Positions 35,093 to 42,015 of a stretch of DNA of 64,000 bases are shown piece after piece. The notes beneath the pieces are model-generated. The model ran no database searches, was not told where the DNA came from, and saw nothing but the letters and a program-made list of their open reading frames with translations. This DNA comes from Rothia similimucilaginosa (GTDB lineage Bacteria; Actinomycetota; Actinomycetes; Actinomycetales; Micrococcaceae), in assembly GCF_029850875.1 (NCBI RefSeq), contig NZ_JAOVAM010000007.1, positions 62,001 through 126,000 on the forward strand, read 5' to 3'. A program made the translations under genes and the position numbers. Numbering within the stretch: the stretch's first letter is position 1; each line of letters begins with the position of its first letter.

Positions 35093-35905
35093 TTACGGCA
35101 GCGGATTCGAGGACTCGGGCTTCTTCGCAAAAGGAAAAAGTAGCAGCGTCAGCAGTACGCCGCCTATAAAGCCACCCGCGTGGCACGCGTGGGAAATATT
35201 TGACGAAGTCAAAAGGCTATAGATGACATTTACCGCGGTAATCATGGCAAACACACGGGCGGTGTCCTTCTGCTTCATGATGATCAGTAGGGTCAAGAAC
35301 GAACCCATCAGGCCAAAAATACCTCCGGAGGCACCCACCACACTGGTTGCAGGAGCCAATACATACACGCCGATGGCTCCAAAGACGATTGAGCCCAGAT
35401 ACACGAAGAGGAACTTCCAGCGGCCCATCATGCGTTCGAGGGACACGCCGTAGATAAACAGATTAATCACGTTCCACACCAGGTGCATCGGGTCATTCTG
35501 CGAATGCAGAAAACCGTAGCTAATGATGCGGTAGTACTCGCCGTGCTGGACGTAGGGCCACCAGATGGCGCCATGTTTAACGACCCATTGGCTGGGGATG
35601 ATCTGTTGCAGGCCGTAAATCGTAGCGGTTATCAAAATGAGCGTGTAGCTAATATGCCAATGGTGCGCCAGGAAGGAGCCCTGCGCCTTCGAGCTGCCGC
35701 CCGTGAGATCGCGGTAGCAATCGGGGCAGACCATCCCCACGTCCAGTGCCACCTGGCATTCGCCGCAGACAGTTCGATTGCAGCGCCCACACTGGGCGTA
35801 GCTCACGCGGTTGGGGTGGTTGATGCAGACCGTGGGGGTCTGTGCATAGCCTGCGTAGTTGGGAAAGTTCTCCACTGAACCTCCAAAGGTTGTGTACCAG
35901 TTCAT
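35093..35905 (-). CDS. Rhomboid intramembrane serine protease with N-terminal zinc finger
   Basis: A 270-residue rhomboid protease that cuts membrane proteins within the bilayer. Residues about 26-65 form a B-box-like zinc-binding domain (CINHP, CGRCNRTVCGEC, CPDC). Six membrane segments follow. Catalytic residues are the Ser of VVGASGGIFGLMG and the His of CHAGGFIGG; HLVWNVINL carries the conserved Asn. Zinc-finger rhomboids of this build are common in actinobacteria. No good ribosome site precedes the ATG, so the start may differ. Its substrates are unknown. Confidence 0.88.
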   Translation of the reverse strand: MNWYTTFGGSVENFPNYAGYAQTPTVCINHPNRVSYAQCGRCNRTVCGECQVALDVGMVCPDCYRDLTGGSSKAQGSFLAHHWHISYTLILITATIYGLQQIIPSQWVVKHGAIWWPYVQHGEYYRIISYGFLHSQNDPMHLVWNVINLFIYGVSLERMMGRWKFLFVYLGSIVFGAIGVYVLAPATSVVGASGGIFGLMGSFLTLLIIMKQKDTARVFAMITAVNVIYSLLTSSNISHACHAGGFIGGVLLTLLLFPFAKKPESSNPLP

Positions 35906-37292: not shown

Positions 37293-37322
37293 AGAACCCC
37301 ATGTCTTTCAACATGGGGTTCT
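37293..37322 (-). terminator. Terminator after 5S rRNA copy 1
   Basis: AGAACCCCATGT pairs with ACATGGGGTTCT around CTTTCA, 13 bases past the 5S 3-prime end on the minus strand, followed by TTTGTAT. Confidence 0.7.
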
Positions 37323-37336
37323 CGGTTCAAAAATAA

Positions 37337-37452
37337 ACCGGCAATAACCTACTCTCCCACACCCTCAAAAGTGCAGTACCATCGGCGCGAAGAGTCTTAG
37401 CTTCTGGGTTCGGAATGGAGCCAGGCGTTTCCCTCTTGCTATAATCACCGGA
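37337..37452 (-). rRNA. 5S ribosomal RNA, copy 1 (orphan)
   Basis: About 116 bases. On the minus strand the ends CCGGTGAT and ATTGCCGG pair as helix I, and conserved 5S stretches GGGAAACGCC, CCATTCCGAACCC, GAAGCTAAG, GCGCCGATGGTACTGCA and GGGTGTGGGAGAGTAGGT are present. No 16S or 23S gene is in the window. It begins about 3 bases after the tRNA-Ala 3-prime end, an unusual arrangement. It has its own terminator. Confidence 0.9.
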
Positions 37453-37455
37453 AAG

Positions 37456-37528
37456 TGGAGGCGAGGGGACTCGAACCCCTAACCCTCTGCTTGCAAAGCA
37501 GATGCGCTACCAATTGCGCCACGCCCCC
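37456..37528 (-). tRNA. tRNA-Ala (anticodon TGC), copy 1
   Basis: 73 bases. Acceptor GGGGGCG pairs with CGCCTCC (one G-U), the D arm has GGCGCAATTGGTAGCGC, the anticodon arm CTGCTTTGCAAGCAG holds TGC, and the T arm has GGTTCGAGTCC. The CCA end is not encoded. It directly precedes a 5S gene on the same strand. Confidence 0.95.
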
Positions 37529-37619
37529 GTGGTGCCCTACTAGTCTATAACAACTTTTACGACTTCACCAAATCCTCAGGTGCATTTTTTTAGTTAAACC
37601 CATCACATTACTGAGGGAT

Positions 37620-38801
37620 TTAGGTAATAACCTCACCCGGCACTGTCGCCTCACGCTTCGTCAGAGCCTGCAGGGAGGCACTAACTTCCTGCAGGTACTT
37701 ACGAACCGCAGTGCGTTGTGCCTCCTTCACAGTCTCCTCCTTCGACTCAGGAGCCGTGAAACCCACCTTAAACCCATCCCACTGGCTCGCCGACGGATAT
37801 TTCTCGCGAGCATTCCACACCAGCGAGAACGACGCCAAAGTGTTGAGCTCCTTCTTCGTGGCAGCCTTCGACAACACATCAGTGACCGTTGCCACACGCG
37901 AAGACTCGGCAACACTCACCGAAATCTTCGACTGCGCACCCGAGGGCAGGCTCAGTGCCTTCTCCGGAGCCAACTGAATATTCAGGTGAATCTGCTGTAC
38001 CCTCTCGTTCTTCAAATCCAGCTCAGCCAGAGTACGGAAACGCTTCATCAGGGATTCATAGTTCTCATCAATCACTGCAGTATTCAGATGCAGCTCATCT
38101 GCCAGCAGGCCCACCTGGGCGTAGCTCGCAGTCGTTCCCAGAGCCGCGTTAGCGGTCAGCACCTTCAGCCACTGCTCTTCCTTCAGGATTGCCGATTCGT
38201 TCACGCGTAGCGGGCTCACCGGCGCATCCGTCACCGTATGAGCAATATTCTGCGGGTCATTCGCCAAGTCCACACCTCCGTAGGTGACGCTCAGCCGATT
38301 CAAAGAACCGTAGACAGACAGGTTTGTCAGCGCTGTAGCAGCCACCGGCAAATCGGCCTGTGCCGCCTCCGTGAGGGAGAAAGAACCCACCAGACGCAGA
38401 TCCTGCTCACGGCGCCCCTGACCCACATAGATACGCCCCAGCGACTCAATCTTCAGGTAGCGGGTATCGATATTTTCACGAATCAGACGCTCGCGGCGCA
38501 CCAACAGCTTCTCGGTTGAAACCACCGCTGCCGCATCCTCGCCCAGCACTCCGGTTGCCGCAATCTGCGGCATTGCGGCGAGCACCCCGGTGGCGGCAAC
38601 CACGCCGCCTGTCAGAAGCAGTGAGCGGCGGGGCACCACGAGGTGGCGCATCTGCCCGGCAATAGCCTTGCGAGCGGCATTTACGCGAGTAGATGGGGTC
38701 TGAGCAACAGAGTCCTCAGCGGCAACCGATGCCGCCTCAGAAGAGCCCTGAGCGGATGTAATGTGAGAGTTCTCGGGTTCAGGGGTAGGTGAAGAAGACA
38801 C
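37620..38801 (-). CDS. Hypothetical signal-anchored protein
   Basis: A 393-residue protein of unknown function. A polar, Ser/Glu-rich N-terminus (about 60 residues) is followed by VVPRRSLLLTGGVVAATGVL, a basic-then-hydrophobic segment resembling a twin-arginine-like signal or membrane anchor, then a mostly beta-looking outside domain of about 300 residues without cysteines. GTG 38801 is chosen because GGAG lies 5 bases before it; a longer form from 38918 has no ribosome site. It is a single gene inside the segment flanked by the tRNA-Ala/5S repeats. The domain was not recognised. Confidence 0.65.
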   Translation of the reverse strand: MSSSPTPEPENSHITSAQGSSEAASVAAEDSVAQTPSTRVNAARKAIAGQMRHLVVPRRSLLLTGGVVAATGVLAAMPQIAATGVLGEDAAAVVSTEKLLVRRERLIRENIDTRYLKIESLGRIYVGQGRREQDLRLVGSFSLTEAAQADLPVAATALTNLSVYGSLNRLSVTYGGVDLANDPQNIAHTVTDAPVSPLRVNESAILKEEQWLKVLTANAALGTTASYAQVGLLADELHLNTAVIDENYESLMKRFRTLAELDLKNERVQQIHLNIQLAPEKALSLPSGAQSKISVSVAESSRVATVTDVLSKAATKKELNTLASFSLVWNAREKYPSASQWDGFKVGFTAPESKEETVKEAQRTAVRKYLQEVSASLQALTKREATVPGEVIT

Positions 38802-38933
38802 AGAATCTCCATAGTGAGAGCGAGCGCAAAGCCCACCGGCGGTTTGAGGGGAGTGAAGTCCCTCTAGAATACCGCTCGCGTCCTTACATCTGCTAAAGAA
38901 TCGCGGCGCATCAATCACAAGGGCATAAAGAAA

Positions 38934-38966
38934 ATCTATGGGGTGGACTCAGTCCACCCCATAGAT
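38934..38966 (-). terminator. Terminator of phosphate transporter operon
   Basis: A 16-bp perfect stem (ATCTATGGGGTGGACT with its complement) around one base, 41 bases past the DUF3349 gene stop on the minus strand, with a short T-rich tail. Confidence 0.75.
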
Positions 38967-39007
38967 CATAAGCTTCATGAGAGCTCTGAACTCTCAGCAC
39001 AGATTAT

Positions 39008-39460
39008 TTAGGCTTCCTCAACCGAAGCAGCGTTCGGAGCCGGGATATTAGCCGACTCAGCAGCAAGCTCCGCAATGCGAATCTCACCGGTCGTCGGATC
39101 CTCATACGCAACATACTCGGTGCCGCCTGCGAGGGGCTCTGCATCCTCGTTCACGTGATTCTCCGCAATTAGGAAACCGTGAGCACCAAGAATCTTAGCG
39201 ACACGATCAATATCCTGAGGAGTCGGAGTATGGTCCACCACGCGACGCATGTACTCATTAATGCGCTGGTCACTGACATATGCCTCACCACGGGCAGCGC
39301 GAGACTGCATGAGCTGACGAACAACTTCTTGCAGCTGCTCATCGGTCAGACGCATCTTCAAAATAGCCATCACTGCCGCACGGTCCTGCACCGGAACATC
39401 CTTGGGATACCCGATGCTCAGCCAGTCGATTACTCGAGAGATTATGCTCTTATCAGGCAC
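39008..39460 (-). CDS. DUF3349 family protein
   Basis: A 150-residue protein. The first 100 residues fit DUF3349, a small helical fold known from mycobacteria: VIDWLSIGYPKDVPVQDRAAVMAILKMRLTDEQ (marked by WLSIGYP and VPVQDR), then VVRQLM and a second helical half ending GAHGFLIA. The acidic C-terminal tail (about 45 residues) adds VAYEDPTTGEIRIAEL. Function unknown. It is third in a minus-strand unit after the phosphate transporter and its small membrane partner. Confidence 0.7.
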   Translation of the reverse strand: MPDKSIISRVIDWLSIGYPKDVPVQDRAAVMAILKMRLTDEQLQEVVRQLMQSRAARGEAYVSDQRINEYMRRVVDHTPTPQDIDRVAKILGAHGFLIAENHVNEDAEPLAGGTEYVAYEDPTTGEIRIAELAAESANIPAPNAASVEEA

Positions 39461-39510
39461 CGAGCCCCTCCTTCAAAGCAGTCATCATATGCAATTTAGT
39501 GTTCACGGGA

Positions 39511-39816
39511 TTAGTGGCCTCCACCGGTTACGCCGAAGATATTCCAGCCGAAAGTGTGGTCGATAAAGTCCTTAGCGACCCAGAGAATACCGATGATTAC
39601 GATTGCTACGATAATAGCAAAAATGCAGGACGCGGCAATCTTCGCCATCGTTCCCGGAGGCTCAATTTCCACAAGCTTGCCGTCCGCCGTGTATTCGGTA
39701 CGACCGGCCAGCAGACGCAGACCCATCGCATACAGTGCCGGAAGGCCCGCACCGAAGAACAGACCGGCGATAAACACCGGAATGACCTTATCTAGAATGT
39801 CGATTACGTACTGCAT
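39511..39816 (-). CDS. Small membrane protein next to phosphate transporter
   Basis: A 101-residue protein with two membrane segments (VIPVFIAGLFFGAGLPALYAM near 10-31 and AASCIFAIIVAIVIIGILWV near 61-80) joined by a polar loop (GRTEYTADGKLVEIEPPG). It begins 2 bases after the PiT gene stop. Small proteins of this kind accompany PiT transporters in several actinobacteria and may be a subunit or regulator; this is inference from position. Confidence 0.7.
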   Translation of the reverse strand: MQYVIDILDKVIPVFIAGLFFGAGLPALYAMGLRLLAGRTEYTADGKLVEIEPPGTMAKIAASCIFAIIVAIVIIGILWVAKDFIDHTFGWNIFGVTGGGH

Positions 39817-39818
39817 GG

Positions 39819-41048
39819 CTACGAACCTGCCTTCTCAGTAGCAAGAGTCTGAGCTTCTGCGGATACTTCAGCGCTGGTGACTGCAGCGCCTTCCTTTTCA
39901 TCCCAGTCGCCAGTCACATTCGAAGCATCAATGTTGTCCTTCCGGGAATGGCGCCACATCAGGAAGCAGAAGATAATCAGCAACGCAAACACGGTCATTT
40001 CGCCAACAAACTGAGTACCGCTCAGAGTATTCAGGCCGTGACCAATCAACCAGGTCAGCGCACCTACAATTGCAGCAGCCGGCAGAGTAATCAGCCAAGC
40101 AACCACCATACGGCCAGCAACGTACCAGCGAACCTCAGCGCCCTTACGACCCAGGCCACTACCCAGAATCGAGCCGGATGCCACGTGAGTGGTGGACAGT
40201 GCCATACCGAAGTGCGAAGAGGTCAGAATAATCGCAGCAGACGCGCCATCAGCAGCAACGCCCTGAGGGGTATCCACCTCAACAATGCCCTTACCGAGGG
40301 TACGGATAATGCGCCAGCCGCCCAGGTAAGTACCCAGGGCAATAGCAACAGCACAGGATGCCTTCACCCACATGGGAATCGCATCGTCATTGTTCAGGGT
40401 GCCCGAAGCAACCAGAGCCAGGAAAATCACGCCCATGGTCTTCTGCGCATCGTTGGTACCGTGTGCCAGAGACATCAGGGAGGCGGTCGCAATCTGTCCC
40501 TTGCGGAAACCACCGTGCTTACGGTCATCAGCAACCGGAGCAGCAATACGGTAAACCAGCCAGGTACCGGTTGCTGCCACGATAGCCGCGATGACGGGGG
40601 AGAGAACCGCGGGAACAATAATCTTGGACAGAACGCCCATCCACTGCACTCCGTCAAAGCCGATAGCGACAATAGCCGAACCAATCAGGCCACCGAACAG
40701 AGCGTGCGACGAGGAGGAGGGAAGACCCAAAAGCCAGGTCAAAACGTTCCAGAGGATGCCGCCAACCAGGCCGGTAAAGACGATGAGCATCAGCGCTGAA
40801 CCATCCGTCGCTACATCGATACGGTCTAGGTTCACGATACCGCTACCGACCGAGCGTGCCACCTCAACGGAGAGGAATGCGCCCACAAGGTTCAGGGACG
40901 CAGAAAGCGCCACGGCGGTCTTAGGCTTCAGAGCACCGGTTGCAATGGAGGTTGCCATCGCGTTACCGGTGTCATGGAAGCCATTCGTAAAGTCGAAGGC
41001 GAGCGCGGTAAGCACCACGATCACGAGAATAATGAGTTCTGTAGTCAC
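39819..41048 (-). CDS. pit: Inorganic phosphate transporter, PiT family
   Basis: A 409-residue low-affinity phosphate/metal-phosphate symporter. Both inverted-repeat family signatures are visible: FDFTNGFHDTGNAMATSIAT near the N-terminus and SLAHGTNDAQKTMGVIFLAL in the second half. Ten or so membrane segments lie between, with a central polar loop and an acidic C-terminal tail. It heads the unit pit-small membrane protein-DUF3349. A PHO-box-like direct repeat lies about 250 bases upstream, hinting at PhoP control. Confidence 0.9.
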   Translation of the reverse strand: MTTELIILVIVVLTALAFDFTNGFHDTGNAMATSIATGALKPKTAVALSASLNLVGAFLSVEVARSVGSGIVNLDRIDVATDGSALMLIVFTGLVGGILWNVLTWLLGLPSSSSHALFGGLIGSAIVAIGFDGVQWMGVLSKIIVPAVLSPVIAAIVAATGTWLVYRIAAPVADDRKHGGFRKGQIATASLMSLAHGTNDAQKTMGVIFLALVASGTLNNDDAIPMWVKASCAVAIALGTYLGGWRIIRTLGKGIVEVDTPQGVAADGASAAIILTSSHFGMALSTTHVASGSILGSGLGRKGAEVRWYVAGRMVVAWLITLPAAAIVGALTWLIGHGLNTLSGTQFVGEMTVFALLIIFCFLMWRHSRKDNIDASNVTGDWDEKEGAAVTSAEVSAEAQTLATEKAGS

Positions 41049-41295
41049 AAGAAAATTATCTGTCGGTTTTCGCGAAATCTAAAGTATTCCGGATTAACAC
41101 GAAATAACAGATGAACCCATATCTATTTACGGGTTTTCGTGAGGGTTTCACTGGAGAGCCTACATTTTAGGAGCAAAAACACTGAAATTCCGCGGCAGGA
41201 TAGGTGCACCCAACAGAATATTTAAGTTGGTTTATGTGGCTTAAGCGTAGACGTGGGGGAGAGGGGCGATTATATCCATCGATAGGCTAAAGTGT
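41049..41295 (-). promoter_or_regulatory. Leader region of the phosphate transporter operon
   Basis: About 250 bases between the PiT start and the PHO-box-like repeat. It is AT-rich near 41090-41120 and presumably holds the promoter. I see no clear terminator, riboswitch or small gene in it or in the rest of the gap to 41562. Confidence 0.35.
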
Positions 41296-41313
41296 GTTCA
41301 CCAAGTGTTCACC
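41296..41313 (-). promoter_or_regulatory. PHO-box-like direct repeat (putative PhoP site)
   Basis: GTTCACC repeated with exactly 11-base spacing: 41296-41302 and 41307-41313. This is the layout of PhoP sites in Streptomyces and relatives (direct 11-base units starting GTTCACC). It is upstream of a phosphate transporter. The distance to the gene and the absence of a mapped promoter keep this tentative. Confidence 0.45.
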
Positions 41314-41562
41314 TTCAGGAACCTCCCAGCTTTCTTTTTTGTGACTCATCTTTATTATTCAGACCTCATTTATCCCTCATTCACGCCCAAGCAGCACCCT
41401 TTTCGCTGCAGATGTGGGTTTCGATCAACTGTACTTGCCATCACACGCCAAGATCACCAAGCTACAGTCAAGAGCTCCCCTCAAAGACCGCAAGCATACA
41501 TAGGTCAGATACAACATGGGACAGATGCCCAGATTGCCATATACCAGCTTCAGCATACAACA

Positions 41563-41595
41563 AAAGACCCCGCATCTTTCGATACGGGGTCTTTT
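41563..41595 (-). terminator. Terminator after 5S rRNA copy 2
   Basis: AAAGACCCCG pairs with CGGGGTCTTT around a loop, 11 bases past the 5S 3-prime end. Minus-strand transcripts end in TTTTGTTG after it. Its sequence is unrelated to the terminator after 5S copy 1. Confidence 0.75.
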
Positions 41596-41605
41596 TCAAA
41601 AAGAA

Positions 41606-41721
41606 ACCGGCAATGACCTACTCTCCCACACCCTCAAAAGTGCAGTACCATCGGCGCGAAGAGTCTTAGCTTCTGGGTTCGGAATGGAGCCAGGCGTTTC
41701 CCTCTTGCTATAATCACCGGA
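41606..41721 (-). rRNA. 5S ribosomal RNA, copy 2 (orphan)
   Basis: Same sequence as copy 1 apart from one base in the 3-prime strand of helix I (a G in the plus-strand sequence at 41615). It is the last gene of tRNA-Ile, tRNA-Ala, 5S. The usual 23S gene between tRNA-Ala and 5S is absent. Confidence 0.9.
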
Positions 41722-41724
41722 AAG

Positions 41725-41797
41725 TGGAGGCGAGGGGACTCGAACCCCTAACCCTCTGCTTGCAAAGCAGATGCGCTACCAATTGCGCCACGCCCCC
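41725..41797 (-). tRNA. tRNA-Ala (anticodon TGC), copy 2
   Basis: Identical to copy 1. It lies 144 bases downstream of tRNA-Ile(GAT), the same pair that follows gyrA in mycobacteria and other actinobacteria. Confidence 0.95.
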
Positions 41798-41941
41798 GTC
41801 TCAGCGGAAACCACTGTTTAGTTATTCTTCCAAGCCTTCACGACTTCATTGCTCTGATACTTCTTCAAGATCTTCACAGTGACACACGAAATAACAGTAA
41901 GAATCAATAATCTCTTCATTATTGCCTTTCATAGTGTGGAG

Positions 41942-42015
41942 TGGGCGTACCAAGAATCGAACTTGGGACCTCTTCGTTATCAGCGAAGCGCTCTAACCGT
42001 CTGAGCTATACGCCC
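41942..42015 (-). tRNA. tRNA-Ile (anticodon GAT)
   Basis: 74 bases. Acceptor GGGCGTA pairs with TACGCCC, D arm AGCTCAGACGGTTAGAGCG, anticodon loop CTGATAA holds GAT, and T arm has GTTCGATTC. Only one copy is present in the window, so it was not part of the repeat that carries tRNA-Ala and 5S. Confidence 0.95.

Follow-up and report, generated by a model that had tools for sequence, protein, structure and literature searches.

Two direct copies of a module consisting of tRNA-Ala(UGC) and a complete 5S rRNA gene, differing from each other by one base, were found on the minus strand of the window, the whole 64-kb stretch of Rothia DNA that was analysed. Judged by comparison with related genomes, the arrangement is conserved and very probably represents a functional, rearranged 5S supply, part of which appears to have moved from an rRNA operon to a tRNA gene. 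We consider it likely that each module acts as a dicistronic tRNA-Ala–5S gene which supplies 5S rRNA, with 3'-processing of the tRNA probably freeing the 5' end of the 5S.

Structure of the tRNA-Ala–5S modules

In module 1, a tRNA-Ala(TGC) of 73 nt (41725-41797, called by ARAGORN and Rfam at 41724-41797) is followed by the spacer CTT (3 nt, 41722-41724), counted from tRNA base 73 to the start of the 5S model, and by a complete 5S rRNA gene (41605-41721; RF00001, 87.0 bits, model positions 1-120). A terminator-like hairpin, visible in the sequence and by folding, lies immediately 3' of this gene (41562-41595). Module 2 shows the same order on the same strand, with tRNA-Ala(TGC) at 37456-37528 (called by both programs at 37455-37528), the 3-nt CTT spacer, measured likewise, at 37453-37455, a complete 5S at 37336-37452 (RF00001, 85.8 bits, model positions 1-120) that carries the single differing base, and a terminator-like hairpin, recognized in the sequence, at 37293-37322. 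Both 5S scores lie far above the RF00001 gathering score of 38 bits. The tRNA has a cloverleaf and the UGC anticodon; its CCA end is not encoded, while several sister species lacking the module do encode it. The copies agree at 73/73 positions of the tRNA and at 119/120 positions of spacer plus 5S, and the flanks agree at 17/60 positions upstream, which is chance level, and at 25/60 downstream. The first-pass annotation had described a directly repeated tRNA-Ala(TGC) and complete 5S about three bases apart, and this description was confirmed. It had also reported that 16S and 23S genes accompany neither copy; none was found by Rfam search within the 64-kb window, so the locus is not a canonical rrn operon. 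An exact 37-base pattern of the tRNA–5S junction gave two matches each in R. mucilaginosa 141_RMUC and in a Rothia MAG, which identifies the host as R. mucilaginosa or a species close to it.

A promoter-like element, TTGGTG-16-TATAGA (37544-37571, minus strand), is situated 15 nt upstream of the tRNA of module 2, and a TATAGA/TATAGT-type box occurs at a similar place in several relatives. Simple consensus scans called no promoter or terminator at either module, the promoter-like element being too weak for them. Upstream of module 1 lies tRNA-Ile(GAT) (41942-42015, minus strand; ARAGORN and Rfam), its ancestral neighbour, as sister Rothia and outgroups show. Since module 1 follows about 140 nt after this gene, it is probably read from upstream, in the same transcript as tRNA-Ile.

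Genomic context, distribution and origin

The minus-strand order at the locus is dnaA, dnaN, recF, gyrB, gyrA, DUF3566, tRNA-Ile(GAT), module 1, a PHO4/Pit transporter, a small membrane protein, a DUF3349 protein, a 432-aa protein and module 2, with recF, gyrA and gyrB named from sequence and position. Beyond module 2 a short plus-strand ORF precedes cyclophilin and rhomboid genes. The modules, 10-16 kb away from dnaA, are separated by 4.1 kb of ordinary genes, namely those for the 432-aa protein, the DUF3349 protein, the small membrane protein and the PHO4/Pit phosphate transporter. The span 37335-41799 given in the first-pass annotation for the duplicated unit does contain both copies, but it takes in these 4.1 kb as well.

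The 35 Rothia genomes fall into 25 in which modules occupy the same two sites, one on each side of the pit gene, eight whose tRNA-Ala at this locus is followed by no 5S, and two (G024 and G031) too incomplete to be scored. Full-length modules could be read in 24 of the 25, the assembly of G004 being broken at contig ends inside the repeat. The representatives of 29 other Micrococcaceae genera have gyrA–tRNA-Ile–tRNA-Ala, without a 5S gene there. By gene order, the module locus is thus the ancestral gyrA–tRNA-Ile–tRNA-Ala locus of the Micrococcaceae, and the earlier suggestion that the units are remains of an rrn operon fails on the lack of any rRNA at this place in the eight sister species and the 29 outgroup genera.

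In a gyrA tree with the 29 outgroup genera, the 25 species with modules formed one clade (support 0.94) and the eight without them its sister clade (support 1.0). A broad tRNA–5S pattern, which fits all 24 genomes with full-length modules, was run against 346 genomes of the actinomycete class and matched none but that of the window. A narrower pattern, which missed some known Rothia modules, found the fusion only in Rothia among 398 genomes of the family. Given the one-clade distribution and pattern matches confined to Rothia, sequence comparison indicates that the fusion is of single origin as far as sampled. The spacer measures 3 nt in all 48 modules of the 24 genomes; its bases vary (CTT, CGT, CTC), its length never.

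A third tRNA–5S unit was found in G002 on another contig (L073 6393-6585), where the 5S follows tRNA-Ala(GGC). This 5S does not differ from the one in the gyrA-locus module and stands behind the same 3-nt spacer, and the tRNA matches tRNA-Ala(TGC) at 63/73 positions, which suggests that recombination through the 3' part of the tRNA can move the 5S onto another tRNA-Ala. An apparent decayed third 5S in the same genome (L072 6684-6778) proved to be a 5S truncated by an assembly gap (a run of N). In two module-less species, G012 (L095 13327-13399) and G023 (L097 4618-4690), a second tRNA-Ala-like gene lies about 155-165 nt downstream of tRNA-Ala. It is conserved between the two species, has a UUCG tetraloop where the anticodon loop would be and carries its own terminator-like hairpin, with no 5S behind it.

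Two other accounts of the duplication were weighed. The genome of the window is a 13-contig draft with collapsed rrn operons, so the layout could in principle be an artefact of assembly in repeated DNA. The same layout, with each copy in different flanks, is present in single-contig genomes of several species, among them the close relatives G014, G015, G001 and G006, which carry both copies. The second copy is thus real, and we give the artefact a negligible probability and regard it as ruled out. Direct repeats flanking about 4 kb, together with the frequent use of tRNA genes as insertion sites, might also point to the relic of a mobile element or rrn insertion at tRNA-Ala, the copies being its flanking repeats. 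But the block of pit, small protein and DUF3349 genes has the same position in most sister species without modules, where it comes after the single tRNA-Ala. The block is therefore old and was not inserted, module 2 having been placed behind it, and the similarity between the copies coincides exactly with the two genes, joined in some species by the terminator. On this synteny of the block between the copies we reject a mobile-element or rrn-remnant origin, which we hold to be very improbable.

Homogenisation of the module copies

The two modules of one genome differ at 0-1 of 120 bases (24 genomes, mean 0.2), compared with 4-28 of 120 for modules at the same position in different subclades, from which it follows that the copies are homogenised. 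Between species, the distance was 13.35 both for same-position and for cross-position comparisons, i.e. without positional signal. Since both sites are occupied throughout the clade, the near-identity reflects concerted evolution and not the recent copying proposed in the first-pass annotation; its other proposal, ongoing gene conversion, agrees with these distances. That gene conversion keeps the modules alike is well supported by the sequence comparisons. The similarity ends with the two genes, except that in some species it extends to the terminator (up to 60/60 in the 60 nt downstream).

rRNA operons and the missing 5S gene

In seven of the eight genomes with all rrn operons resolved (G001, G003, G005, G006, G014, G015 and G028), the operon nearest to oriC stops after 23S and has no 5S according to cmscan. 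These seven genomes each contain three 16S/23S pairs and four 5S genes, two of them linked to rrn operons and two in the modules. The 5S-less operon is located about 35-55 kb from the modules, at one conserved place by its flanking genes (five species compared), and its 23S trailer runs directly into a terminator. In G014, its homology with the other operons ends just before the expected start of 5S. The genome of the window, at the corresponding contig end, has the same junction without 5S (G000:C9:188675-189092), continuously matching the trailer and the downstream DNA; in the same assembly, contig C6 has a 5S after the trailer and contig C10 starts inside a 5S. The absence of 5S from one rrn operon supports the first-pass idea that the modules are an alternative to operon-borne 5S. 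With four 5S genes per three 23S genes there is a surplus, which means that compensation need not be strict, and rrn-linked 5S genes are still present in all adequately assembled genomes.

The exception among the eight is G027, in which all four rrn operons (L191, L192, L193 and L194), including the oriC-proximal one, carry an identical 5S in addition to the modules. The downstream neighbours of this operon match those of the 5S-less operon in the other genomes. Loss of the rrn 5S is therefore not a strict result of having modules; in G027 either the 5S was regained by conversion between operons, or 5S was lost more than once in the clade. The rrn 5S of G027 is unusual, with 75% identity to the 5S of its modules. 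In the sister clade, G025 has three rrn operons, all with 5S, and the third is at another place than the 5S-less operon. The latter may therefore have been born without 5S, and the oriC-proximal operon either lost its 5S or was formed without one. Behind one rrn operon of the module-less G022 (L103), two different 5S genes lie in tandem (C18:35414-35531 and 35647-35764), the outer of which resembles a separate 5S in G009.

Conservation and divergence of the 5S genes

When the 16 distinct module 5S sequences were placed on the 34-pair Rfam structure, 94.3% of the cells were paired, against at most 49% for slid control structures. Six pairs had changed on both sides, accounting for 23 such cells, a number reached in 0/500 shuffles, with the reservation that related species do not contribute independent counts. 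The compensatory changes argue for selection on the 5S itself. Every intact module 5S is full length and scores 84.9-109.2 bits, and in most species it outscores its rrn-linked counterpart within the genome (e.g. 108 versus 99-101 bits). In the genome of the window the module copies reach 87.0 and 85.8 bits versus 88.7 bits for the rrn 5S, and some other genomes also have about equal or slightly lower module scores.

Within a genome, module and rrn 5S differ by 3-26% and are kept apart in most species; in R. mucilaginosa, several positions separate the two. A 5S tree mixes module and rrn types, and no module-specific signature is common across the clade. The rrn 5S is very divergent in G001 (58.6 bits versus 89.4 for the module) and in G006 (59.8 versus 88.3), possibly because the modules supply 5S and selection on the rrn copies has relaxed. 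The divergent loci (G006 L064 5705-5823 and L120 684-802; G001 L067 5585-5701 and L132 2-118) share about 74% identity with the module 5S of their own genomes, with changes in helices II/III and in loops.

In G029, the tRNA of module 1 (L085 7792-7862) is broken: its anticodon loop has 6 nt, it scores 51.9 bits with Rfam and ARAGORN gives it no name. It still folds as a cloverleaf, and the 5S behind it is 120/120 identical to the other copy. A tRNA kept as a processing tag may be expected to look like this; early decay would look alike, and the case is single.

That the module 5S genes are non-functional extras, copied by chance behind tRNA-Ala with selection acting on the tRNA alone, would be compatible with the persistence of rrn-linked 5S in all adequately assembled genomes, as extra copies could be neutral. 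This reading is quite unlikely in our estimation, because it does not account for compensatory changes in the 5S helices across species, for intact modules of full length that mostly score above the rrn copy, for a 5S that stayed intact while its tRNA decayed in G029, or for an rrn operon without 5S. Only a little more probable, and still unlikely, is that the module 5S is a specialised variant, made for different ribosomes in some condition, instead of belonging to the ordinary supply. The 3-26% divergence from rrn 5S within genomes, the separation of the types in most species, the homogenisation of the module copies and the strongly divergent rrn 5S of G001 and G006 would all suit a specialised variant; yet it is the module 5S that is the more consensus-like type, and the clade has no common module signature in a tree that mixes both types. 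Ordinary supply of 5S from a dicistronic gene is the reading that we develop below.

Proposed expression and processing

The unit tRNA-Ala(UGC)–3 nt–5S rRNA–terminator would be transcribed into one precursor, seemingly from its own promoter in the case of module 2 and probably after tRNA-Ile in the case of module 1. The precursor would be cut by RNase P at the 5' end of the tRNA and by RNase Z or an equivalent enzyme at its 3' end. The mature 5S of E. coli and Micrococcus luteus, which we take to begin 2 nt before the Rfam model start, places the predicted start of the mature module 5S roughly 1 nt beyond tRNA base 73. The cut at the tRNA 3' end would thus release a 5S with an almost mature 5' end, both ends being made at once. 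RNase E/G is encoded in the genome, and an RNase Z-like ORF was recognized as two matching parts of one 301-aa frame, with a score below the curated cut-off. Through their position near oriC, the modules would provide 5S at high gene dosage and make good the 5S absent from the ori-proximal 16S-23S operon, and gene conversion would keep both copies alike. From sequence we infer transcription of the modules, the processing route, use of the product in ribosomes and compensation for the missing rrn 5S.

A wider reading, which we put forward tentatively and consider rather doubtful, is that tRNA genes of this Rothia clade are taking over the main 5S supply from the rrn operons. The tRNA would then serve as a processing tag, one rrn 5S would already have been lost and the rrn-linked 5S would be drifting, strongly so in G001 and G006; the tag might lose decoding and yet stay, as in G029, and the 5S could spread to other tRNA-Ala genes, as in G002.

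Comparison with known systems

Acker et al. are reported to have described, in 2008, dicistronic tRNA–5S rRNA genes in the yeast Yarrowia lipolytica. Such genes are transcribed by RNA polymerase III, with the tRNA supplying the promoter, while a bacterial tRNA could help only in processing. As in the yeast, the 5S of Rothia stands behind a tRNA gene, outside the rRNA operon, and is apparently expressed through that gene, tRNA and 5S being adjacent as one unit with one terminator (in Rothia with a 3-nt spacer and a hairpin after the 5S). Rothia is a bacterium, so its modules are not RNA polymerase III genes read from a promoter inside the tRNA, and, unlike in Yarrowia, the module tRNA is always tRNA-Ala; the likeness is one of layout and not of membership. 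The paper on the Yarrowia genes (doi 10.1093/nar/gkn549) is cited in PMC5014426. In the distal part of E. coli rrnD, rrfD–thrV–rrfF, a 5S gene (rrfF) also lies downstream of a tRNA gene (thrV), but the gap there is 37 nt and the genes belong to a full rrn operon, unlike the 3 nt and the lack of an rrn operon in Rothia.

The unlinked rRNA genes of bacteria treated by Brewer et al. in 2020 reportedly concern chiefly the separation of 16S and 23S. The modules resemble them, and orphan 5S genes, in placing rRNA away from the canonical 16S-23S-5S operon; they differ in that 16S and 23S of Rothia stay linked, with the 5S of one operon missing and 5S genes found behind tRNA-Ala. Unlinked rRNA genes occur widely among bacteria (Brewer et al. 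2020, doi 10.1038/s41396-019-0552-3, as cited in PMC7761764). The open-licence papers searched did not mention tRNA–5S units in Rothia, nor did they describe a free-standing bacterial tRNA–5S unit that is duplicated clade-wide and accompanied by an rrn operon without 5S.

The 5S gene is as a rule coupled to 23S, an arrangement that serves to produce the components of the large subunit in equal numbers. The modules would mean that one bacterial clade has long uncoupled part of its 5S synthesis and transferred this part to the control of a tRNA gene beside oriC. With species from before and after the change, the clade would offer a natural system for asking whether bacteria need 5S to be linked to 23S, and it may also bear on how a 5S 5' end is made without the usual rRNA processing and on how dispersed RNA genes are homogenised.
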